Source of the DNA: Sphagnum magellanicum
Taxonomy: Eukaryota; Streptophyta; Sphagnopsida; Sphagnales; Sphagnaceae
NCBI GenBank assembly: GCA_021904315.1
Contig: CM038907.1
Coordinates: 16,623,223-16,687,222 of the forward strand
Reading direction: 5' to 3'
Length of the DNA: 64,000 nt
Shown piece by piece: positions 1 through 56,061 of this stretch. Made by a program: the position numbers and the translations under genes. Every line of letters begins with the position of its first letter. Within the stretch, counting starts at the first letter, position 1. The notes below the pieces were generated by a model. It searched no databases, had not been told where the DNA came from, and was given only the letters and a program-made list of their open reading frames with translations.

Positions 1-125
1 TACTCATTATGCTTGTGATGCAATCTCTTGGAAGTCTTAAAAAATTTTGCCTTTATTTCACTTACAACTTGATGTGGTACATTTGTGTAACTTTCCGCCC
101 CACTAAAAGAAAGATGATGTCCTCA
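1..125 (-). other. Element A sequence downstream of the pol stop codon
   Basis: This is the stretch between the pol stop codon and the unseen 3' LTR. On the minus strand it contains a short purine-rich run near 98-112 (AGTGGGGCGGAAAG) that could be part of a polypurine tract. The LTR start (TGTCGCAACC) is not reached before the window edge. No host gene is visible. Confidence 0.5.
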
Positions 126-2108
126 TCACGCTCTATGTTTCCTTTGCCTCTTTGCCGGTCTATTGTGGAACTCTTCTATGGCTTCTTGGGCATGTTCCAT
201 ATCGGACTCGTTCACCCAAGATGCCTCTATTGGATGGTAACCTTTCCACTTGACCAAGTACTCCCGTTCTCTCCCCCTTATTTGCCTTGACTTGAGCACG
301 GCCTCCACTTCAAACTCGGGCTCATTGTGGACCAAGTCCGGAGGGGGCCTTGAATTGTGCTCTCGATTAGGCCTTGAGGCATCACGGGTGACCGGCTTCA
401 AAAGCGAAACATGGAATACGGGATGAACCTTAAGATTTTCCGGTAGATCTAATTTGTAAGTGTCGGGAAATTTCTTTTCCAACACTTTGAATGGGCCCGC
501 ATATGGGCCCAAGAACTTGTGACTCAAACCTTCGGGCAACCGGAAGTTCTTAATGTTCAACCATACTTCATCACCTTCTTCAAAATGCACCTCTCGTCGG
601 GACTTGTCCGCAAAGTCTTTGTACCTTTTATGCGCCTTCTCAAGATTAGCCTTGGCCATCTCCCACAAGCGCCGCCTTTCTTCATCAAGTTGTGTGACCA
701 TGGGCACTTCCTCACTCGCATCACTTGGAGGTTGTCCAACCCAAGTTGTGGGTACAATTGGTGACTTGCCCGTCACCATTTGAAATGGGGTGGCCCCCGT
801 TGCTGAATGCTCCGAATTGTTGTAACAAAATTCGGCCAACTCCAAATGGTCCACCCAATCTTGTTGGTCCGCCGCCACATAATTCCTTAGGAATTGTTGG
901 ATCACCAAGTTCACCCTCTCGGTTTGTCCATCGGTTTGGGGCCGAAAGGAAGTGCTCATCTTGAGCTCGGACCCCATGCGCTTCCACAATGCTCTCCAAA
1001 ACTTGCTCGTGAACTTGGGGTCTCGATGCGACACAATGTCCTTGGGGAGGCCGTGATGCTTGAACACGTGGGTGAAGAACAACCTTCCCGTCTCTTGGGC
1101 CGTGGCATTTTCCTTGGTAGGAATGAAATGTGCCATCTTGCTAAACCGATCCACCACCACCATGATCGCATCAAACCCCTTTGATGGTGGCAAACTCACC
1201 ATGAAATCCATGGAAACACTTTCCCACGGCCCTTCCGGAATGGGTAATGGTCGCAACAATCCCGCTTGCTTTTTATTGAGTGCCCGGTTTTGTTGGCAAG
1301 TCAAGCAAGTCTTCACGTATTCCTCCGCATCCTCTTTCAAGTTGGGCCAATAATAGGACTTCTTGAGGAATGTGGTGGTGCGCTTTGCACCACCATGGCC
1401 CGCAAGGGGCCCATCATGACATTCCTTCAAAAGCACATCCCTTAACCTCCCTTTTGGAACATAGAGCCGGTTTTGCTTGTACCATAATAGTCCATTTTGT
1501 AAGTGGAAGTGGGACTTCATCCCCCTTTGGATTTCTTGCTTCCTTTCCTTGGCAAACTCGTCATGGCGGCTCCCAACACGAACTTCCTTTTGGAACTCGC
1601 TTTCCCCCACATACACCACTTTGAGTTGGTGTTTCCGACTCAATGCATCCGGCACCACATTTTCCTTCCCGGGCTTATGCCGAATATCCACATTGAACAA
1701 GGCCAATGTGTCTTGCCATCTCACTTGCTTTGATGACAACTTTGGTTGAGTTGCAAAGTACTTCAAGGTGACATTGTCGGTCCACACCACCACGTCCTTG
1801 GAGCCTATGTAATGGCCCCAAGTCTTGAGACAATGGATGACGGCCCACATTTCCTTCTCATGGGTTGGCCACCTTCGCTCCGTCTCGCTTAACTTCTTGC
1901 TTTCGAAGGCCACCGGCCTTCCATCTTGCACTAGGACTCCTCCTATGGCAAAGTCGGACGCATCGGAGTGGATCTCAAAGTCCTTGTCAAAATCGGGTAA
2001 CTTCAACACGGGCGCCTTCACCAAAATGCCCTTCAAGGTTTCAAAGGCCTCATTGCATGCCTCTTCCCATTCGTAAGCCCCGGATGACTTCTTCAAAAGG
2101 TTTGTCAA
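126..2108 (-). CDS. RNase H-integrase-chromodomain frame of element A (out of frame with RT)
   Basis: This is the continuation of pol after the frameshift. The frame is open from about 2145, and 2108 is only the first TTG, so it has no genuine start of its own. Order: RNase H with D49, E86 and D111 present; integrase HHCC zinc-binding domain (H231, H238, C268, C271); integrase core; GPY/F module (about 533-545); C-terminal chromodomain (about 599-646, YLVKWKGY...SWV), then a basic tail. The core has D301 in SMDF and E397 in DGQTERVN, but the middle catalytic Asp is His361 (codon 1028-1026). It lies exactly 35 residues before the Glu, as in the D,D35E family. Chromodomains of this class steer insertion to histone-marked chromatin. 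With the frameshift and the lost Asp, this copy should be unable to integrate by itself. Confidence 0.92.
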
Positions 2109-4617
2109 AGGTGCGGCTATCTTTGCAAAGTTCTTGATGCCATTTCCAATAATAGGATGCCAATCCTAGAAATGACCTTAAGGCGGGAACCGACCTAGGC
2201 GGTTCCCAATCCAAAATTGCCTTCACCTTGTGGTCATCCATCTTCAAACCTTCTTGGGTGATCCTATGCCCAAGGAAGTCCACCTCCGAGACTCCAAACT
2301 CGCACTTCTCAAACTTGGCATACAACTTGTTTTCCTTCAACCTTTGGAACACCTTTCGAAGGTGTTCCGCATGCTCCTCCATGGAGTTGCTATAAACCAA
2401 AATGTCGTCTATGTAGACGACCACAAAGTCGTCCAACCACTCTCGGAAAATGTCATTCATGAGGGTGCAAAATGTGGCGGGTGCGTTGGTGAGCCCAAAA
2501 GGCATCACCAAAAACTCGTAGGAACCATACCTCGTGCGGCAAGCGGTTTTCTCTTCATCCCCTTGTGCAATTCGAATTTGGTAATACCCGGAACGTAGGT
2601 CAATCCTACTAAACACTTTGGCTCCCGAAAGTCGATCAAACAAGTCATCAATCCGAGGCAATGGGTACCTATTCTTCACGGTCACCTTGTTGAGGGCCCT
2701 ATAATCCACGCACATCCTCAAAGTCCCATCCTTTTTGTGAACAAAAAGGACGGGTGCCCCATATGGCGACTTGCTAGGTTTGATGTACCCCTTCGCGAGG
2801 AGTTCTTCGAGTTGAACCTTGAGCTCTTTTAACTCCTCATGACTCATTCGATACGGGGCCTTGGCGGGAGGTGCCACTCCCGGGACCACCTCAATGGCAT
2901 GGTCCACTTGTCTTCTCGGGGGCAACTCATCGGGCAACTCTTCAGGCATCACATCCGGGAATTCCTCTAACACTTGCTTAATGCACTTGTGGGGGCTCAC
3001 CACCTTGGTGGCCTCCTTTGGTTCAAACTCATCCAACACCCGCATCACACATAACATGCTATGGCCTCCCCCACATTCTTTTTCCAAGTTCTTTCCCAAC
3101 ATCAAGTGGATGGTTGTCCCACCCACGCTAGGCACTTCATGTGCCTTCACTCGCACGATCCCATTTTTGGATGGGATCCTAACTAGCCGATTGTGCCCTT
3201 CTATGAGCACATTGTTCCTTGTGATGAATTCCATTCCCAAAATGCAATCCATTCCCCTTAAGGTGGAAACTAGTAAGTCCACCTTGCCTCTCCAATTCCC
3301 CAATTGAAGAGGCACATCTTTTGCTCGCAACTTGGTGGGATGGGGAATGCCATCCGCAAAATGCACCTCGATGGGTGCCTTGAGCTCCTCCAAGGGGAGC
3401 TCCATTCTTTCCGCACTTTCTTGTGTTATGAAGTTGTGGGAAGCCCCTGTGTCCAAAAGACAAAGCACTTCCCGCTTAGAAACCTTCCCTTTCAAGAAAA
3501 TAAGGCGATTACATTCACCTTGGGCTAGGTTGGCGGCAAGGGCATTTACCTTAGTAGCCCCACTCCCCGGTTTGGGTTTGGGACAATCTTTGGAATAGTG
3601 CCCCGCTTCATTGCAATTGAAACACACTCCTTTGGGTTTCCCACTAGCATCTCCCTTGGGTTGGCTCCCTTTGAAAGGAACTCCCTTCTTGACAAAATTT
3701 CCCTTGGGTTTAAAACTCGAGCCTTGGAATGGTTTAGGCTTTTCCCCCTTTGAGGTGTCTTGGCCTTGACTCCATTCCCCTTCATGGCGCGCTTTCTTGT
3801 GAGGGAACTTACTATCCCTTTTGAATCCGGACTTCTCACCTCGCCCCACATCCGAAAAGCCTTCCACTTTCATGATGGCTTCGGTGAGTGAGGCGGGCCA
3901 ATTCTCTTCAAGTTTGCGCTTCGCCCAAGTTGGAAGCCCCATCACAAAGTGGCACACCCGGTCTAACTCATGCATATGCCTAATTTCAAGCATGAGTTCG
4001 GAATAAGCCCTCACATATTGACGTAAGTTCTCATTGCTTGCATTCACAAGGTCACGAAGTTTACATCTTGAAATGTAGTCGGAATTCTTGGGAATGAATT
4101 CCAACTCAATACGCTCCTTGAAGAATTCCCATGTGTAGCCATGGGTCTTCCCCTCTTCTTGCCTCACCGTCCTCCACCATGTGGAGGCATAGCCCTTCAA
4201 ATAGGATTGGGCAAGTTCCACGGCCGAATATCGACCAACTTTAGCGGCATGGAGGTAATCTTCCATTTCCGCAAGCCAAGCATCCACAACCTTCCGATCC
4301 CGGGCCCCATCAAAATTCCCAGGCCTAGCGGGCTTGAATCCCACACTTTTAGACGAACCTCCCTTGAGGGCCTCTACCAATTCACTAAAATTGGGCCTAT
4401 TCATTTTGAGTAGGACCTCCAATTGCTCCGGGGTGAAGAAGACTCCATTTGGTTGTTCTTCTTCATTCTCATGCTCCTCAAGGCTAGCACGGTCTCCTTC
4501 ATCTTCGGAATGGTCTTGTTCCTCCTCCCTAATAGGTTTGGGAGGAACATCTAAATCTTGGGTGGGTTCTTCCACCACGGTCTCTTGGACTGGTTTGCGG
4601 GCCTTCTTTGGTGCCAT
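2050..4617 (-). CDS. Gag-protease-reverse transcriptase frame of element A
   Basis: This is an 855-residue frame starting at an ATG 37 nt downstream of the primer-binding site. An acidic N-terminal region is followed by a Retrotrans_gag-type domain (about residues 95-255), a CCHC zinc knuckle (residues 332-345, C-X2-C-X4-H-X4-C), an aspartic protease with LLDTGAS (D389), and a reverse transcriptase (about 590-800) with [26 protein letters not shown] and the catalytic YIDD (735-738). Gag and Pol share one frame, as in many plant chromoviruses. The last 30 or so residues, after the Tyr-Tyr at 822-823, are nonsense. Thirteen nucleotides stand where twelve are expected, which shifts the RNase H domain into another frame. 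The product would normally build the particle, cleave the polyprotein and copy the RNA in the cytoplasm. Confidence 0.93.
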
Positions 4618-4653
4618 CGGAACTTCCTAATAAGTGGATCGAGCTCTCCCAGA

Positions 4654-4665
4654 GCTCTGATACCA
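4654..4665 (-). other. Primer-binding site of element A (initiator-Met tRNA type)
   Basis: The minus strand reads TGGTATCAGAGC, the form widely seen in plant LTR retrotransposons and matching the 3' end of initiator methionine tRNA. It begins 2 nt after the LTR terminal CA (4669-4668), so it fixes both the LTR edge and the element's orientation. Confidence 0.9.
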
Positions 4666-4667
4666 AG

Positions 4668-5611
4668 TGACGCACTCCTAACCACTCGAAGGACTCAAAT
4701 GTGAGTCCAAGTGAAAGACAGCGGAAGTGGGAGTGGTCGGGAGGCGCTCCCTAGCTCACAACACTTGGAGGGGTAGAGGGGCGTGTTGGAGCTCCGGGAT
4801 GGGACTAGGAAGAGTTGACAAGCTTCACTCACTCACACGGGCCTGCATGGAACCACACAAAGTGGTTAGAACATAGTTGGAGCACATTTGGTGCTAGGAC
4901 GAGCCACGGGCAACACGGACACACAAGACTCACCACGGCCCGGACTTGGGGGAAGCCACCACCTTCCCCCTTATAGTATACTCTGTGCCACGTCGCGGGG
5001 GTGGCACCCAAATGGACATTTTGTCCCGGGAGTCCCGGGACTCCCGCGCGGGAGTCCCGAAATCCCGCCCAGCGGGACTCCCGGGACTTTGAACGCGCAT
5101 AACTTTCGGAGCAGACCTCCGATGACGACGCGGTCTGAAGCAAAGTTGTAGATCTCGTCGAGACCTTTCCAACGGTATGTCGCACGTTCTCAGCAGCCAA
5201 GTATTTCGGGTCGATTCCCGACTTTTAGTGCCCGGGAGTCAAAACTGGCGGACTCCCGCGAGTTTGACTCCCGGGCCTTCTTTTGGCCATAACTTGCGTT
5301 TTAGATGTCCAAATGAGCAATGCGAGCCCATTTTAGACATTTACACTTCAAGACCTTTCCATTGATATAAAGAGCGCACCAAGCCATTGAGTTTTGACCC
5401 CTCAAAACGAGCTCTGAAGTTTCGGGAGTCCTTTTGGGACTCCAACTCTCACCAACTCCCAACATGGGAGTTGCCTTGGGAGTGTGAGGGTCCACTCCCT
5501 CACACTTTCTTGCACTCCCGGGAGTCTTGATGTGACTCTCGGGCTTCCTTTTTGGCCCGCACCCTTGCAACCCCCTTGCCTTGGTCGCGAGCCAAGGCTA
5601 GGGTTGCGACA
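4668..5611 (-). repeat. 5' LTR of element A (944 bp)
   Basis: On the minus strand it starts TGTCGCAACC at 5611 and ends GCGTCA at 4668, the expected TG...CA termini, directly followed by the primer-binding site. It is much richer in G+C than the surrounding DNA and full of CCCGGGAGTC-type motifs on both strands, including two overlapping perfect palindromes at 5028-5045 and 5037-5058. A TATA-like stretch (4971-4980) and a stem-loop (4948-4970) mark the probable U3/R boundary. It is homologous along most of its length to the solo LTR at 11318-12138, although the two have clearly diverged. Confidence 0.9.
4948..4980 (-). promoter_or_regulatory. TATA-like element and adjacent stem-loop in the element A LTR
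   Basis: On the minus strand TATACTATAAG (4980-4970) is followed at once by a stem-loop with arms GGGGGAAG and CTTCCCCC and a 7-nt loop (4970-4948). The same 23 nt stem-loop, base for base, follows a TATA-like run in the solo LTR at 11831-11853. Position and conservation suggest the start of the R region or a leader structure; this is inference. Confidence 0.55.
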
Positions 5612-5635
5612 CACTTGATTGGTTCACGTGTTATA

Positions 5636-6163
5636 GATGACGGTCGTAATCTGGTCATTAGTTTTAGCATGGCTAAACTAGTGAGCTTTCCTACCTCTGA
5701 TTCTACATTCACATATTAGAAGGGAGCTAAAAACACTTCACTCGTGGATTTTTTACTCAGCAAAGGTGTTGTGAATAACCATTTTTTCCACAAAGTCTTT
5801 CACTCATTTCTGAAGGTGGTGCCTACTGAGAGAACTTCCATCGCCACCAGAGTTGCCATTATCGATAATACTAAGTCAACAATCCAGGTGGGAGGACATA
5901 CACCCAAAGTGGTACTTCTTGATACAGGTGCTTAACTAGTGATTCTTGGAGTTCAATTCGCTAAGAAGATGGCCATGCTCAGCTCCAAACTACGGAAATC
6001 TATGTGGCAAATTCGCACAGTTAGTGGGAGCCTAGAGGAGGTACTTGGGGAGAGCTCAAATTTGATTGCACTTAACTTCAATGAAGGTACAGATCAAGAG
6101 CTTTGCCTACAAGTCAGATGTTTAGTCACCAATGCCACCACTTACGATGTGCTCATCAGGTAA
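5636..6163 (+). pseudogene. Gag-end/protease remnant of element B
   Basis: One reading frame with two internal stops runs through this stretch. The recognisable feature is KVVLLDTGA (protease active-site motif, codons 5906-5932), followed by a stop and then protease-like sequence up to TTYDVLIR (about 6135-6160), which resembles the end of retroviral-type aspartic proteases (the DVILG region). A protease dimer would normally cut the Gag-Pol polyprotein. Upstream, from 5636, the frame is open but shows no zinc knuckle. Gag proper is absent, presumably separated by the insertion of element A. Confidence 0.75.
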
Positions 6164-6223
6164 GAAGCCCTGTTTCCACTAGGTTTCACACTTGATAGCT
6201 AATTCAAGCATGCGTACTATCGA

Positions 6224-7686
6224 GTGGATTGGGAGATTAATGGCCACCGCCTGGGATACATACCCTTTGATTTACATGGGAACCATAATCCTATGGCTCA
6301 CCATTATATGCTCAAGGAAGCACACACCATTTCCTACATCCAACAAGCTAGCCACAAATGGATAGAGGGAGATGAAGAGGAGATAGTTTACGCCCAAGCT
6401 ACTGAAAGTTTGAAGGTGGTTCTTAATGACATTCAACATGGATCAGAGGTTTTACAAAGGTTCAAAGTAGCCCACGAGCCTTTGGTCAAAGCTCTGTCAA
6501 GTTTTGAGAACATGGAAAGCCATGGTGAACCAATTAAGCTAATATTTCGTCAACTAATCACCTGGACACTGCCTAAGGAGGGGATTACATTACTAAAGTT
6601 CTTTGGTGGTATTGGTACAAGTCTCAAAGCCCTGTTATAGTCAGGGATGGTGGTTCAGAAGTATTTCTATGTAGACATTGATCCTATTATAAGGCAAGTG
6701 GCGACATTGAGAATGATGGAGCTCATAGCTAGAGTACAAGAATTTACAACCATCACACGGAAGGCCAATTTCACTTTCTTGCCCTTTGACATACAACTAA
6801 TTCAAAAGAAACATATGAACTATTTGGCCCCGTGGACTTCATCATTTCAGGTTGGGAGTGTCAAGGATTTTCAACAGTTGGATTTGGAGAAGGATTGAGT
6901 GACACAAGATCTGATCTCTTCACGGACATGGTACGATTGATCACTTGGGCTCAATCCATTTCTCCTACGCTTGGTTATGTAATTAAGAACACCACTTCTT
7001 AGTTTGACCAAAGGAAAAAAATCTAAGAGCATTACACGTTAGTCAAACATTACTTTGGAGAGCTACTTCTACTTGATGTAACACAATGCAGTTCCTATGT
7101 GCACTGGTTGCGTAATTGGTGGACCAACCTTGTAGCACTCTCAGTTCTGCAGTTGGCTCTAAGATACACCATTACAGACCCCAACCTGCAGGTTTTTCAC
7201 ATATTGGATGATCAAAGCTCCTACTAACCAATTATAAGGTAAGAAAAACCTCCGTGCTTTCTTGTGAACACAATAGGAAAACCAAGAGGTGCTTGGCCCA
7301 CCTATGTCTCCTTCCCAGGAGCACATGCCTTTCAGGGAGATGGACCAAGCCTAGTGTATCGTCATGTTTTAGCCATTTGGGATGAACTGAGCCCAGAAGA
7401 AAGAGAAAGGGCTATGGGTTTTCAAACTGGCACTACTAATCACACCAAGGTGACTAAATTGGAGCGTAACGTTCTACTGGGGAGAGGCATGGACTTGAAC
7501 TCCCTTACATGGTTATTGGTAACTTGTGTACTCTTTCAAATGTACACAACACCAACACTAATTCAATCAGCTTCCAATTTCGACGATGCAACCACATGGC
7601 ACCTCGACCAAGTACACTTGCCTATATTCAACACTTTACACTTCATTCTTAATGTTAGGGGGGGGAGGAGGTACCATGTAATTTGA
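6224..7686 (+). pseudogene. C5-cytosine DNA methyltransferase domain inside element B pol
   Basis: Methyltransferase motifs occur in canonical order. Motif I (SAM binding) is KFFGGIGTSL at about 6596-6625. A motif II-like YFYVDIDP follows. Motif IV is GWECQGFS, with the catalytic Cys codon at 6859-6861. A motif VI-like VIKNTTS is at 6979-6999, where the usual Glu of ENV is Lys. The motif VIII region is LRNWWTNL at 7108-7131. Motifs IX-X are SPEERERAMGFQTGTT (7390-7437) and RNVLLGRGMDLNS (7465-7503). A one-base deletion near 6826 and several stops break it. Motifs VIII-X resemble DNMT3-type enzymes, while motif IV Cys-Gln is like DNMT1 and bacterial enzymes. It sits between protease and RT, so it was part of the retroelement polyprotein and not a host gene. 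Intact, it would transfer methyl from SAM to cytosine. Confidence 0.82.
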
Positions 7687-7763: not shown

Positions 7764-9350
7764 TTGGATAGTGGAAAACCCAATGCACTAGGTTTTTCAA
7801 ACACACTTTCTAACTCCATTCCATGTGTTTCCAACTACCCTTTTGTTATGGGGAACCAATTCACCAAGAAGGAGAGACACCAGGTCATAGACTTACTAAT
7901 TAAGTATGAAAATGTGTTCACATTTTTAATGAAAGACTTAGGTAGGTGTAAGACCATGCAATTTTATATAGACCTTACAGATGAGACACCCGTTTATCGA
8001 AGGAGGCATAGGTTAAGTAAGCATGAGTGGGAACTGGTAGATGAAAGATGCAAAGAGCTCCATGAGGCTGTTCTCATTCAACCATCAAGTTTTGATTTTG
8101 TAGTCGTTACAATAATGCTAACAAAGAAATATTCAGTTGGATTATGGACTAAGAAAAGGATGTGTGGGGATTATAGGCCATTGAACCTAGTTACACCTTA
8201 GGATAGGTACCCCATGCCCATCCCTGAAGAATTGTTTGATAACATTGGAGACTCAAACATCTTCATAATTGTGGATCTAAGGCAAGGCTTCAACCATATT
8301 GTGTTCACTGTAAAGGATCACAAAAAAACGACATTCCATGGAAGCAATAAGTTGTGGGAATGGCTTGTGATGCCTTTTGGATTGAAGAATGCAAATGTCT
8401 TCTTTTAGCGAGTCGTGGACCAGGTTTTTGAAGGGGCAAATTTCTTGAAGTGCTACATAGATGATGTCCTAGTGCTTAGTAAGGGACTCTTGTAGCACTT
8501 GGCTCATCTTGAGGAGTTATTCAAAAAGCTCCACGAAGTCAATATGAAGGTTCATCCTAAAAAGTGGGAGGTTACTATCACCTTAGTAGTCTACCTTAGA
8601 CACAGAATTTTGCCAAATGGTATTATGGCTCATTGGGCTGAAGTAGTATCCATTTTGGAGATGCCCAATCCTACTAATGTTCACATTTTGAGGAGTTTCA
8701 TTAGACTATGTAATTACTATAGGATTTATGTCCAAGACTTCAATACTATTGCTCATCCTTTCTATGCATTGTTAAAAAAGGATGTTGCTTGGAAATGGAG
8801 TGAAGAGGCTCAAGAAGCTTTCGACACACTCAAGGAAAAGCTTTCAGAGTTCCCCATTCTGAGAAGACCTAATTTAAGCAAGGTTTTCATTCTACACATT
8901 GACTGGAATGCTCTTGGTATTGGTGTTGTTCTCAGCCAACTTGATGAGGAAGGCAAGGAATATGTTATTGCCTATGCATCTCGAAACAACAACAAGGCTG
9001 AGAACAACTATTCTTCATACAAAGGGTTGTGTCTTACTGTTGTATGGGCCGTCATACATTTTAGGCCCTATTTTTATGGCACCAAGTTCACTTTGTATAC
9101 TGACCACTAGCCTATCAAGTGGTTGATGATTAACAATAAGCTTACTGGTAAGTTAGTTTGTTGGGCGCTTATACTTCATGAGTATGAGTTCAAGGTTATT
9201 CACCGACTTGGTATTACACATCAGAATGCGAATACCATGTCACGGAAACGCTTCACTAGCTCTGAAGATTTTTTAGAAGCCAGGCAAGACTTCGGCCATA
9301 TTCTAGTAATACATGTATCTTATGCATCTAATTATCTTGCATTACTATAA
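7764..9350 (+). pseudogene. Reverse transcriptase-RNase H of element B
   Basis: A single frame interrupted by TAG stops at 8199, 8406, 8496 and 9108. RT landmarks: a PVYRRRHRLS..HEWELV lead-in, CGDYRPLN, FIIVDLRQGFN, WLVMPFGLKNA and the catalytic YIDD (8454-8465), all in the order expected of Ty3/gypsy RT. RNase H follows at about 8880-9260: the first Asp (HIDW, 8901-8903) and third Asp (YTDH) remain, but the Glu-containing helix reads YKGLCLTVVWA, so the catalytic Glu is gone. After TDH a stop stands where this family almost always has Gln-Pro. The copy is inactive but easily recognisable. Confidence 0.88.
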
Positions 9351-9533
9351 TGTAGCCTGATTAAGCATCCCATTGTGGATATATGGGAGGATTTGGACAT
9401 TTTGAGGTTTCTTTAACATGGGGAATACCCTCCCCAAGTTACATCAATTCATTGGGATCACATACAACAACGGTGTAAACATTACTCATGGAGGGACAAT
9501 CACTTCGTTCGATGTTTACCACAAGGCAACATA

Positions 9534-10257
9534 GTGGTTCCTCCACCACATGAATGGCTCAGTCTTATTCAAAAGGTACACTTGGAGCTTATACATTTTG
9601 GAGTTAAATGTATTTATAGCCTTCTTGTTCCTCATTACCATTGGAGAGCTATGTATGCTCAAGTCCGAAACATCATTGCTAAGTGTGAACAATGTGATAG
9701 AGTGAGAACTTCTTTCTCCTTTTGATAGTTCATGCTTTTCCACTCCCTATTCAGGACATGTTCTATTGCTAGTCATGTGATTAGTTGGAGAGTTACCACA
9801 GACCTCCAAGGGTAATGTCTACATCATGATTATGATTAAGCATTTTTCAAAGTGGGTCGAGCTTGTTGTGCTACCGAACAAGTCATCACATAACACCAGC
9901 CAGGTTTTCTTACAATAGGTCCTAAGTAGGTTTGGGGCTTGTTCTAAGTGCCTTACTGTTCAAGGATCATAATTCAGAGGAAAATTCCAAGACCTATTTG
10001 ACCATGCTTTCATTGACCATTGCCGGACTTCATGGGATCATCCCCAAGCCAATGGCCTTGCAGAAAGGATGGTTCAGACATGCAAGAAAGGACTTTGGAA
10101 GATTTGCCTCATTAAGTTCCAAGAGGATTGGGACTTGGCCCTACCTTACATCGCCATGGGTTACAAGATGTCCAAACATGCCTTTTTGTCTCATTTCTCT
10201 CCTTACTTTCTACTTTTTGGGAGACATCCCATTCCACCCTTTTCCATTGCTGCTTAA
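9534..10257 (+). pseudogene. Integrase of element B (zinc-binding domain and core, degenerate)
   Basis: Residues 16-54 of the first segment hold the HHCC zinc-binding domain (H16, H21, C51, C54; codons 9579-9695). The core continues after a stop at 9723-9725 in shifting frames. A Cys-Asp from the first catalytic region survives near 9772. The segment around 9950-9990 that should carry the second Asp reads CLTVQGS-stop-FRG, so the Asp is Val. GLAERMVQTCKKGL near 10053-10094 retains the third-position Glu. The later stretch (ALPYIAMGYKMSKH..SPYFLLFGRHPIPP) is typical of the region downstream of gypsy integrase cores. It would have joined the cDNA to the chromosome; in this copy it cannot. Confidence 0.75.
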
Positions 10258-10428: not shown

Positions 10429-10824
10429 GTGAGACAATTTGATGTTGGTGATTTTGTGTATTTCCAGCGACAACGTAATGATACTTTAGACACTTCTTCC
10501 GGTCACACTATCTTGAGGATTAAGGTGATTAGACCTTCAAGTGTGTTGAAGTTGCAAGGAGCTGACGGATGCACAATTCGAGATCACTCCAAAAATTGTG
10601 CGCCTTGCCACCTGCCGAACTTAGATCCTACCATCATCATGTCGATTTGGATTCCTCCACTTGACTATCCATGTCAGGTATGTCAAAGGACAAATAATGT
10701 TGATCAAATGTTGTTTTGCGATAATTGTAATGGTGGATACCATTTATTCTGCCTCAAGTTAGAGCTCACTCAAGTTCTCGTTGACATTTGGTATTGTTCA
10801 TCATGTTCTCTTGTAGCACCTTGA
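10429..10824 (+). pseudogene. Post-integrase module and C-terminal PHD finger of element B pol
   Basis: This 131-residue open segment starts with QFDVGDFVYFQRQ, the module after the integrase core, and ends in a complete C4HC3 PHD finger. The ligands are C82-X2-C85-X11-C97-X2-C100-X4-H105-X2-C108-X14-C123-X2-C126, with the conserved Trp two residues before the seventh ligand (W121) and CDNCNGGYH around the fourth. PHD fingers read histone H3 tails, mainly the state of Lys4. In this position it takes the place of the chromodomain of chromoviruses such as element A and may have guided insertion. All eight zinc ligands remain in a copy otherwise full of stops. Its stop codon lies about 40 bp before the polypurine tract. 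Confidence 0.82.
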
Positions 10825-10861: not shown

Positions 10862-10873
10862 ATCTGGGGGGGG
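10862..10873 (+). other. Polypurine tract of element B
   Basis: AATCT is followed by eight G and then TGATACATG, the expected plus-strand priming site directly before the 3' LTR start at 10874. Confidence 0.7.
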
Positions 10874-11317
10874 TGATACATGAAAATTTCATTTCTGCTT
10901 CTTCTTGTGCATTATATATATATGCGCATGCATATATTTTTAGTTGATTAGTTTTTACCTTTGATTGGTTTTAGTCTTTTTGTTTAATAGAGTTTATTAT
11001 GGATTTACACCCTTACGACATTATATGTCACGACACTACGTGTCACGATAATTGTCATCCTTGTATGCATGGCTTCATACATGATGGCTGGTTACGGGCA
11101 TGCCAATCATGCCTTTTAGGGTTAATGTACGTTCTTAGGTTACTGTATGCTATTAGGTGTTTTAGGGTTATGGCTTGTTTAGGGTTCAACTTGTTGGCGG
11201 TTGTATAAAAGGTCAAGTTCTTCCCTTTTCTAGTTAGTTTTTTTATAATTCCTTTGTTAAGGGGAGTTTCCTCCATACTCAAATTGGATTTCTAGATGCT
11301 CATGGTGGCTATTACAC
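10874..11317 (+). repeat. 3' LTR of element B, part left of the solo-LTR insertion
   Basis: Begins TGATACATGAAAATTTC right after the polypurine tract. It contains an alternating AT/GC palindromic stretch near 10914-10937. About 170 bp (10877-11048) recur at 12194-12364. The LTR is cut at 11317 by the solo LTR and resumes at 12139; its end is not identifiable with confidence. Confidence 0.65.
11313..11317. repeat. Target-site duplication TACAC, left copy
   Basis: TACAC immediately precedes the TG of the solo LTR and is repeated exactly after its terminal CA at 12139-12143. Five base pairs is the normal Ty3/gypsy duplication size. Confidence 0.85.
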
Positions 11318-12138
11318 TGTTGCAACCCCACTGTGAGGGAGTTGTGAGGTTGCCACTCACACTCCCGAAAATGGGACTTGCGAGTCCTCCGAGACTCCCG
11401 AAAACTTGGAGCGCAATTGCAGGGGTCAAAACACCTCACATTGGGGCGTTCTTAGTATCGTTGAAAAGGTCTTGAAGTGTAGATGTCCAAAATGGCCTTG
11501 CATGAGCCATTTGGACATCTGCAGCACAAGTTATGGTCGAAAGAAAGGTCGGGAGTCAAATTGGTAGTTTGACTCCCGACCACTAAAAGTCGGGAATCGA
11601 CCCGAATTCGGTGTGTGTAGGTGAAGTGCGACACACTATTGAAAAGCTCTCGATGAGAGCTACAACTTTGGTTTAGACTTCGTCCCAATCCGAGTTCGGG
11701 GCGAGGAGTTATGAGTGTCCAAAGTCCCGGGAGTCCAAACCGAGACAGTTTCGGGACTCCACTTTGGGAGTCCCGGGAAAAAGAACCATTTGGATGCAAG
11801 TGCGGTGGAGAGCTGCAGAGAATACTATATGGGGGAAGGTGGTGGCTTCCCCCGAGTCCAGGCCGTGGTGAGTCAAGTGAGTCCAAGGTAGCCTGTGACT
11901 TGTCCCAACACCAAAAGGGTGCAGAATGAGTTCTAACCAACTTGTTGGTTGGATTTGGATGCAAGACTGTGTAATTGAGTAAACTTATCCCTCTCCTTAG
12001 TCTATCCCGGAGCTTTCAGCACGCCCCTCTCACCCCCTTTAGTGCTGGAAGCTGTGAGTGTGCCCCGAGTCCAGAAATTCCGTAATTTGAGTGACTTAGT
12101 TCCAACTTGGGGCTAACTTGGGACTTGGGAGCGCGTCA
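11318..12138 (+). mobile_element. Solo LTR related to the element A LTR (821 bp)
   Basis: Starts TGTTGCAACC and ends GCGCGTCA, matching the termini of the element A LTR (TGTCGCAACC...GCGTCA) in the opposite orientation. Shared blocks include GTCTTGAAGTGTAGATGTC near 11468, the block around 11583-11606 with AAAGTCGGGAATCGACCCGA, the TATA-like run plus 23-nt stem-loop (11823-11853), and CACGCCCCTCTC near 12020. No internal retrotransposon sequence lies between its ends and exact 5-bp duplications flank it. It is therefore a solo LTR left by LTR-LTR recombination of a full element that had inserted into element B's 3' LTR. Confidence 0.9.
11831..11853 (+). promoter_or_regulatory. Stem-loop after the TATA-like run in the solo LTR
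   Basis: Arms GGGGGAAG and CTTCCCCC around a GTGGTGG loop, directly after TACTATAT. It is identical in all 23 positions to the element A LTR counterpart although the flanking sequence has diverged. Confidence 0.5.
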
Positions 12139-12143
12139 TACAC
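12139..12143. repeat. Target-site duplication TACAC, right copy
   Basis: Exact repeat of 11313-11317, directly after the terminal CA of the solo LTR. Confidence 0.85.
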
Positions 12144-12193
12144 GGCCATCGTTTACATACACTACGTTTTCTTTCCTTCTTTGCAATTTAATA

Positions 12194-12364
12194 TACATGA
12201 AAATTTCATCTTAGCCTCCTCTTGTGCATTGTATATATATGTGCATGCATATCTTTTTAGTTGATTAGTTTCTATCTTCGACTAGTTTTAGTCTTTTTGT
12301 TTAGTAGAGTTTACTATGGATTTACACGCTTATGACACCATATGTCACAACACTACACGTCACA
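12194..12364 (+). repeat. Second copy of the start of the element B LTR
   Basis: About 170 bp closely matching 10877-11048 in the same orientation (TACATGAAAATTTCAT..., the GCATGCATAT palindrome, the GGATTTACAC..TATGTCAC block). It lies just after the resumed part of B's 3' LTR. This suggests either tandem LTRs or insertion of B next to an older LTR of the same family. Confidence 0.65.
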
Positions 12365-14803
12365 ACATGATGTAATTAATTTAAGTTTTAATGTAATCAT
12401 GAGAGTGAATACATGTTAAATTACATAATTAAAAGAAGCAATAATAGATAATTATGTAGTTTTACATGTTTTTAATTTTGTAGTTGGATACATAATTAAA
12501 TTATGTAATTTCAAATGTGAAAACATACATTAATTTGAAATATTTATGGGCCAAGTCAAAATAGTACGTTACTTTCATATGTATATTTTATATCATCTTC
12601 ACAAGCACATTTATCCTTTATATATATCTTTTTTTGTTCATTTTTCAACAATTTTTTTGATTAAGATTTGTAATTGTTGAAAAACAATTGCCAATGCATG
12701 GTCTAGGTATGTCCTTTTCATTTACATTATTAATGTTTAATAACACAATAAGCCCTTTGGTAGTGGCTTGAATAGTACACTTAGAAGCATGCAAAAAGAT
12801 GAAACCTTTAGTTTAGTAATGGATGAGTTGTTCAACATTTATTAAACCCTCATTCAGAGGTACAAAATATCAAAATTAAAATCTAGTACCTAATTGCTCA
12901 AATAAGGGGTCAACATCATTTAAATTGAATAAGTGCCCTAGTTATGTAATCTTAATGACAACTAGATGTAGTCAATTGCTCATTCTAAATGAGCACATGA
13001 TTAAATTGGAGACATAGATTGTGGATGCTAGGTTTTGGTGTAATGCATCTAGCTACTAAAATGGGGCTTGAACCCACTTTTAGTTTATGTCAATATAACC
13101 TCACATGTACTTTGAAGTCGTTCACAATGCCAACATTATGATGCCAATTGATGTCCCAAGAAGTCCACACAAGCCTCCATACTCTCAAGACATTGAGACA
13201 AGACTTGTAAAAAAATCTTACATTTAATTATAAGATAGAAGTTGCATACCACAATGGTGCTCCATGCCCCCCACAACATTTAGCCTGACTTTTGCAGTTC
13301 ATTTAGTTGTTCAATTCTACCAAAAGTGCATGGTTAGCAACCTCAATGTAAGATTAATTAAGTTAAGAAGCTCAATAGTTGTCAATAAGCAAGCCATAGT
13401 TCAACATATTTTATTAAGCTCACATGTGAAGTCTTGTATAAACGATTCATAACATACATTAGTTCCCTCCTCTTGTCTTGGTGTTGCTTATGCACTTGGG
13501 ATGTTTCCACAAGTAACCTATGATCTACCCTTGGGGTCATCAATTGCATGAACATTGTACTTCCTTTGTAAATTTGTACTTGTGTATAGAATTTGGAGAA
13601 TTTAGACCTAATTGAAGGTAAATAATGTAAACTGTTGATGTTGATGGCAAAGTAGCTGTAGTTGTCAAGAATTGTTGGTCTTTCCTTGTGTTGTGGAGAC
13701 TGGTAGGAAATGTGCAATTGTTCCAGAATTTAAGTTTGTTCAAATCATGAGGCTTCTCTTGCAGTACTTCATTGCTTGGATATTGTCACCGATCGAGCAA
13801 CAAGTAGTGTGGTACTCCTGCGATTTTTTTCCCAATTGATTTTGCTTTGTCAGCAAGTTTTGGTAAAGCAAGAAGTCACAAGATCATGGAACCATCCCTA
13901 GTGAGAATCTTGATGCTATGAAATTGGAAGGACATTAGGTTGTATGAGTTACAAACCATAACATTTGACCTCGGTTTCATTAGCGACCTACTAGTTTAGC
14001 ACAAGGTACCACCTTGGGCTCTCATTTGACCAAGGATTCCATAACCCTTCTCTGCTTGGATGAAGATTTCATAACCACTTTTTGCATGGATGAAAAGAGG
14101 GCATCTCAATTCTCAAGAGGGATGGTTGTGTCTGGTAACCAGCTTGCTCAAGTGCGCTGGTCTCAACCTTCATACACCTTGACTGTTGAAAAGTAACCTA
14201 TAAGTGCTCTTGCACTCTAGCGTAGTGTAAATCAAGACTTGTGTCAAGTGTCAACTCCAGACATGTGGATGTCATAAGGAAGTGCAAAGAAGCCTTTCAT
14301 GTGTACTGCATGTTTGAGGCAAATCAAATTATGTCTCAGATCAGCACTCCCCCTTATTGTTGGGTAAACCTCCTCCTAGTTTGTACCAAGTGCATGCATG
14401 CAGCTACGAGATCCTGTTGACAATCACAATGGAATGTTAGAGAGGGTGCATCACCCCCACGGTCTAAAGATCTGATTTGTTTGTTGATTGTGTGACTACA
14501 GAATTCATGATTTGGAACAAATTCTGGCGAGTTTTTGGAGACAAGATAATTAACCCTAATTAGCAGGCAAATAACACAAAGCTAGTAGTACCTGTTGAAG
14601 TCATGACTTTTGCTCAAGTAGACTGCCTGTGTAATTGGTTGGACACTCTTTCTAGAACTAGAACTATATAATGACTCTGCCAACCAGATTGTCAATCTTC
14701 AAATGCAGAGCATACATCTAACTTCCCCATTTACTTGGGCTCCATTGGACATCCTCACAAGTAACAAAGCTTCATGATTTTGCCTTCTTATTAGGAGCCC
14801 AGG

Positions 14804-53406: not shown

Positions 53407-53469
53407 TGTACGGTCGTCTAGAGTGATTTTGTGGGTATTTTCAGAGAGCTCCCCAAGGAAGAGTCCATC

Positions 53470-56061
<2,592 letters not shown>

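Follow-up and report, generated by a model that had tools for sequence, protein, structure and literature searches.

A gypsy-type retrotransposon family of the moss Sphagnum magellanicum with a DNMT3-like cytosine-5 methyltransferase domain in its Pol frame

The element in the window

The window is a 64,000-nucleotide stretch of the Sphagnum magellanicum genome (GCA_021904315.1, contig CM038907.1, positions 16,623,223 to 16,687,222). Its left part holds the remains of a retrotransposon with gypsy-type Pol in which a cytosine-5 DNA methyltransferase (DNMT) domain lies between the protease and the reverse transcriptase. An earlier note, made from the letters alone, had proposed a retrotransposon encoding its own C5-methyltransferase; a Pfam profile match, a collinear open copy elsewhere in the genome (L009) and the presence of the domain in family copies bear this out. 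The features of the element, and of the younger one that truncates it, are as follows.

5608 to 6202, + strand: aspartic protease (DTGA within 5912-5932) and the end of the gag-protease spacer, from the alignment to L009 and the motif position
6572 to 7550, + strand: C5-methyltransferase domain, DNMT3-type, decayed, motifs I to X in canonical order (PF00145 and motifs; five stops)
7960 to 8650, + strand: reverse transcriptase, decayed, limits approximate, from motifs (MCGDYRPLN at 8160-8186, YIDDVL at 8454-8471) and the genomic reverse transcriptase match G000:C1:16631184-16631858
8796 to 9250, + strand: RNase H, end approximate (Pfam RT_RNaseH_2, 2.4e-31)
9520 to 10180, + strand: integrase, decayed, limits approximate, from motifs (zinc-binding CEQCD at 9684-9698; catalytic part DHPQANGLAERM at 10036-10071)
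10672 to 10821, + strand: PHD finger, C terminus of Pol (PF00628, 8.9e-11, match 10672-10809)
10865 to 10873, + strand: candidate polypurine tract TGGGGGGGG, read directly and found at the same place in L009 and L012
10876 to 11048, + strand: repeat B1, 87% direct repeat of the sequence from 12193 and 83% identical to B of L012
11053 to 12192, + strand: repeat A2, matched to 11317 (75.8% to A of L012), followed by a foreign insert like a long terminal repeat (LTR) and then by its own last bases (11300-12192 read)
11320 to 12150, + strand: the LTR-like insert within A2, limits approximate, kin of the chromovirus LTR-like stretch at 4917-5430 (inverted repeats I1-I4, 76-83%)
12193 to 12367, + strand: repeat B2, the right end of the element (...CACAACA), from repeat comparison
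1 to 5607, - strand: younger chromovirus with a gag-protease-reverse transcriptase frame (2050-4626), an RNase H-integrase-chromodomain frame (126-2165) and an LTR-like stretch to about 5607, from Pfam and frames

All the motifs that the earlier note had named between the protease DTGA and the reverse transcriptase are present where it placed them, in canonical order: FFGGIGT at 6599-6619 (frame 1), GWECQGFS at 6850-6873 and the motif VI segment at 6976-6999, then LRNWWTNL at 7108-7131, ERERAMGF at 7399-7422 and LLGRGM at 7474-7491 (frame 0). A frame change separates motif I from motif IV. On its own, the open 66-residue piece 6802-6999 passes the Pfam DNA_methylase profile (PF00145): it scores 31.3 bits (E 1.9e-7), and the cut-off is 22 bits. 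The profile match whose absence was to count against the proposal was therefore found; a genome-wide Pfam search recovered the window domain independently at 28.6 bits. The alignment to L009 is collinear, with 87% identity over 5463 nt, and begins at 5608, the 5' part of the element having been cut off by the opposite-strand chromovirus. Read on the L009 frame, the window copy has five stops in the DNMT and 25 in the aligning 73% of the coding region, and its integrase gives a weak rve_3 match (0.043, under the profile's cut-off) as against an rve match of 2.8e-11 in L009. The window copy is dead.

Copies in the genome, enzyme class and selection

The assembly of 31 contigs and 438,994,042 bases, in which the window lies in contig C1, was searched with the DNMT domain of L009. 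At least 119 copies were found, a lower bound as 119 of 1087 candidates were scored, all 78-100% identical to the query; ten are stop-free over at least 339 of the 340 residues, and 108 contain a stop inside the match. L009 itself is a single frame of 2379 residues, comprising gag with two zinc knuckles, protease, DNMT, reverse transcriptase, RNase H, integrase and PHD finger; copies with intact frames, which the earlier note had suggested looking for, exist. The order of Pol in this family (family A) is protease, DNMT3-type methyltransferase, reverse transcriptase, RNase H, integrase, PHD finger. The whole DNMT domain is present in 17 of 17 full-length copies compared, which had been found by their DNMT. 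A complementary search by reverse transcriptase, in which 150 of 3578 candidates were scored, gave an upstream DNMT match for 45 of the best 51; two of the other six were inspected, and one had a full domain, the other only the domain end. The counter-argument raised in the earlier note, that other family copies might lack the segment, was not borne out by these comparisons.

The DNMT of L009 has motifs I, IV, VI, VIII and IX/X in non-rearranged, canonical order, with the catalytic Cys and Glu, and is closer to DNMT3 than to DNMT1, bacterial or DRM enzymes; by sequence and predicted fold, we class it as DNMT3-type. Capture of a DRM gene was rejected on motif order, which runs from I to X in L009 and is rearranged in the host DRM gene L027 (VI-X before I-V). 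The same genome carries three host DRM-type genes (L002, L005, L027) and a DNMT1/MET1-like gene (L026), the last judged by eye from one short piece. Across 84 retroelement DNMT sequences the catalytic Cys, Glu and Asn and both motif VIII Arg residues are conserved in nearly all.

The element itself has the Ty3/gypsy order of protease, reverse transcriptase, RNase H and DDE-type integrase (Pfam, L009), and 4-bp target duplications in six of seven copies. No chromodomain was detected to E 0.1 in the L009 polyprotein, which has a PHD finger instead, so it is not a chromovirus; a DIRS element with a tyrosine recombinase was ruled out by the rve integrase and the 4-bp duplications.

A second family, B (L001, L003/L029, L004), has a protease-DNMT frame followed by reverse transcriptase, integrase and a PHD finger that a stop interrupts in the copy read; its DNMT is 42% identical to that of family A. 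One family B copy lies at G000:C18:10527000-10538000 (L029, L030), and its nearest relatives are Marchantia, Calypogeia and other Sphagnum proteins.

Selection was assessed by comparing DNMT changes that at least two copies share with those private to one. Seventeen copies were used. The incomplete L006, L007, L008 and L012 were left out, as was the window copy from the main test. Shared changes comprised 26 nonsynonymous and 41 synonymous (N/S 0.63), and private changes 81 and 30 (N/S 2.70; Fisher p 8.6e-6), the unconstrained ratio expected from the private spectrum being 2.44. This contrast is a sign of purifying selection on the DNMT while the element was mobile, the kind of support that the earlier note had asked for, and the same pattern was seen for gag (p 0.0001) and integrase (p 0.013). 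We relied on this test rather than on pairwise dN/dS, a measure that C>T decay biases and that came to about 0.3 in every bin for the DNMT. C>T and G>A make up 71% of private changes, with the highest per-site rates in CG and CHG; the copies decay like methylated DNA, whichever enzyme methylates them.

Relatives and the position of the methyltransferase

Relatives were sought in three protein searches, which yielded 32, 62 and 281 hits; scoring in the second was confined to the best 8000 candidates, and the third was taken to the best 120 of its 281. Named sources of the relatives are Marchantia polymorpha, Calypogeia fissa, Closterium, Haematococcus, Monoraphidium, Chromochloris, Sphagnum (troendelagicum, fallax, compactum, balticum and magellanicum) and one bacterial bin. 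A PHD finger was recognized by motif in 31 of 93 relatives; 38 of the relatives have an integrase match, and these include all 31. The bryophyte proteins (e.g., P0037, P0034, P0121, P0081, P0122 and P0207) have the DNMT after the protease where that is included, and before the reverse transcriptase where the protein extends that far. To the family B domain, P0034 is 66%, P0037 64% and P0081 44% identical; to family A, P0121 is 64%, P0122 79% and P0207 89% identical, over 77, 65 and 34% of the domain, respectively. These relatives are deposited under labels that include hypothetical protein, unnamed protein product, CCHC-type domain, DNA (cytosine-5)-methyltransferase or reverse transcriptase. 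In P0093 of the zygnematophyte Closterium, which shares 37% identity with family A across 180 residues, only the protease side is visible. The chlorophyte proteins Haematococcus P0019, Monoraphidium P0025 and Chromochloris P0020 belong to the same DNMT group and share the integrase and PHD finger, but their DNMT lies between reverse transcriptase/RNase H and integrase (only the integrase side being visible in P0020) rather than between protease and reverse transcriptase; in chlorophyte proteins generally it precedes the integrase, and follows the reverse transcriptase where one is present. P0152, filed under a Candidatus Obscuribacterales metagenome-assembled genome, has a DNMT 44% identical to that of family A that looks like a retroelement domain, and probably comes from a eukaryotic contig that was misbinned.

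On a tree of 79 DNMT domains (87 rows less three outgroups and five short rows, the root not fixed), the position label changes once, on a branch with support 100/99, and none of 500 shuffles gave so low a count. The label for the position between reverse transcriptase and integrase was set per protein, with some such rows showing one neighbor only and many in the other group only the protease. A reverse transcriptase tree of 28 rows, with one chromovirus as the single outside row, splits the same groups (99/100); its row mossA_L020x derives from L028. DNMT position thus follows lineage: the domain was either captured once and moved once, or taken up twice from a common source. The retroelement-only clade that the earlier note had looked for was recovered in part: the retroelement DNMTs do group (support 81) in a first tree, but against only three long-branched outgroups (DNMT3A, one host DRM and HhaI), whose long branches meet, and with plant DNMT3 not among the rows. 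That tree leaves out P0085, P0087, P0089, P0090 and, apart from P0062 and P0081, every row covering fewer than 285 profile positions; it was used for the inner split only, which the 79-domain tree repeats without outgroups.

Retroelements with captured methyltransferases have been described in Symbiodinium and the charophyte Klebsormidium nitens (PMC5890265), in agreement with the dinoflagellate and charophyte cases cited in the earlier note. The closest described system is KnitGypsy-Dnmt3, which has a non-rearranged Dnmt3-type domain in a Gypsy Pol frame under purifying selection, and for which the legend to Fig. 4 gives a DIRS-type arrangement of repeats with Gypsy domains (PMC5890265); the Sphagnum element shares the Dnmt3 in Gypsy Pol, the DIRS-like repeats and the purifying selection. 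It differs in its host, a moss with at least 119 copies, and the words "moss" and "PHD" do not occur in the main text of PMC5890265; target duplications, a primer site and a circle model do not appear in its sections 9, 10 and 11, the comparison being one of published descriptions. SymbioDIRS-Dnmt3 is likewise a retroelement-borne Dnmt3, and Symbiodinium enzymes methylate CG in yeast (PMC5890265), but it is of the DIRS class, whereas the integrase of the Sphagnum element is DDE-type (rve) and its copies are flanked by 4-bp target duplications. The KnitGypsy-Dnmt3 finding is cited in PMC12344493, and a 2019 paper states that such elements are absent from land plants (PMC6338049). The passages of PMC11244446, PMC10538959, PMC6453930 and PMC6186995 that were seen contain no bryophyte case, and a search by titles and abstract starts, with most subscription papers and preprints outside its coverage, returned no paper on DNMT-carrying retrotransposons in bryophytes. 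The stated absence does not hold for bryophytes: the elements occur in Sphagnum, Marchantia and Calypogeia, which also answers the doubt of the earlier note over land-plant examples. The element type is already known; what is new is that bryophytes hold members in quantity, that a PHD finger is present, that the DNMT takes two positions and that the integration anatomy is unusual. The PHD finger (10672-10809) and the split terminal repeats go beyond the earlier note.

Terminal repeats, a proposed mechanism and its alternatives

Family A loci have the form A-body-B1-A2-B2 or A-body-B. A complete LTR repeated on either side of the body was not found, B preceding A in none of the seven copies with the left end in view; instead, the repeats are split as in DIRS elements, with B-A-B at the 3' end in eight of 18 fetched loci and in the window. 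Equal 4-bp flanks stand beside TGTCATG... and ...CAC(G/A)ACA in six of the seven copies with both ends in view. The B1|A2 joint reads CACGACA-GC-TGTCATG, with a 10-bp palindrome, in six of nine printed joints; two loci and the window differ. The A2|B2 joint runs from ...TTTCAAT to ATACATGA in eight loci. An exact-match search of the genome gave 12 hits to B|A...A|B, none to a canonical left end (B|A...primer site) and none to reversed-pattern controls. A run of G lies directly 5' of B1. Eleven of the 18 fetched loci contain the primer-site half. In the six copies tried, the site after A1 is complementary over 10-16 nt to sequence within A that lies 32 nt past TATAAAA, compared with 5-8 nt for control stretches. 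In Tf1 of fission yeast the 5' end of the RNA is likewise complementary to a primer site beside the left repeat; Tf1 is not known to have a DNMT or split repeats.

This anatomy (split repeats, 4-bp duplications and a self-complementary primer site) suggests that circular DNA is integrated after being cut at an internal palindrome. The RNA would start in A, about 32 nt after TATAAAA, and its 5' end would pair with the complementary site after A1 to prime reverse transcription. The product, BA-body-BA, would be joined end to end into a two-LTR circle, and cutting by integrase at the B|A palindrome would yield the observed A-body-B-A-B with TG...CA ends and 4-bp duplications; a one-LTR circle would yield the second form, A-body-B. 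As a component of Gag-Pol, the methyltransferase would be packaged along with reverse transcriptase and integrase, and we infer that it most likely acts on newly made element DNA before or at integration, so that the element methylates its own DNA and new copies arrive premarked. The PHD finger may help to choose the chromatin target. We give this whole account, from self-priming and circles to self-methylation and PHD targeting, a probability of about 0.5. A wider version is more tentative: that a gypsy-type lineage spanning chlorophytes, charophytes, liverworts and mosses integrates from circles, its DDE integrase cutting a palindromic junction internal to the LTR, its own DNMT3 methylating the circle and its PHD finger placing it. 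If so, circle integration would have left its mark in the split repeats, the 4-bp duplications and the exact A|B joints. The anatomy is also relevant to the question of whether circular DNA can serve an integrase element.

DNA methylation normally targets transposons; here a transposon carries the enzyme. A sequenced plant that has both host DRM genes and many copies of the element, some open-framed, makes a benefit from self-methylation testable.

Several observations weigh against this account. The C>T decay can be explained by host methylases alone. Protease, reverse transcriptase, RNase H and PHD finger show no significant shared/private contrast in the 17-copy set, and adding the window copy lowers that of the DNMT to 0.91 versus 1.93 (p 0.0069). 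L017 lacks a target duplication, and the zero for canonical left ends holds for exact matches, without a left-end count to calibrate it. The A-body-B form could arise by recombination between B1 and B2 after insertion. Terminal repeats were not found in the one family B copy read. In 25 of 84 sequences, family A included, the Pro that usually precedes the catalytic Cys is replaced by Glu, and the KnitGypsy-Dnmt3 enzyme gave no methylation in yeast, a result its authors called inconclusive (PMC5890265). The Glu-for-Pro sequences occur in both DNMT position groups, 6 of 50 in one and 19 of 34 in the other.

The strongest competitor, possible although clearly behind self-methylation, is that the enzyme works with the PHD finger on target-site chromatin or other genomic DNA, such as host genes or rival elements, rather than on its own cDNA. 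DNMT3 enzymes act on chromatin, and a canonical PHD finger follows the integrase here, as it does in most integrase-bearing relatives; on the other hand, the DNMT lies inside Pol, is made with the cDNA machinery and shows no sign of a separate product. Rather unlikely is a domain that has lost DNA methylation and is now non-enzymatic or RNA-directed, binding cDNA or RNA in the particle, for instance. Both the Glu substitution and the charophyte result in yeast would fit, but binding would not require all of the residues Cys, Glu, Asn and the two Arg of motif VIII, which are kept in nearly every sequence. We consider it improbable that the DNMT is a passenger, captured once, now needless and retained by drift: most scored copies do have a stop in it, and retrotransposons without a DNMT, such as the window chromovirus, thrive in the same genome, but its shared N/S is about a quarter of neutral, which disfavors a neutral relic, and the catalytic residues persist in relatives from mosses, liverworts and algae. 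From the badly broken window copy one might suspect chance motifs in a degraded linker between protease and reverse transcriptase, or a piece of a host gene struck by the element; both are rejected by the genome-wide Pfam match, the collinear copy with one unbroken Gag-Pol frame, the copy number and the relatives elsewhere.

Elsewhere in the window, the chromovirus inserted into the DNMT element (126-4626, - strand) retains long open frames of 858 and 679 residues and a chromodomain, with Pfam matches to gag, RVP_2, RVT_1, RNaseH, Integrase_H2C2 and Chromo. A host-type gene in pieces lies at 53422-56061 (+ strand), with FAD_binding_4 and cytokinin dehydrogenase domains (Cytokin-bind, 1.4e-33).
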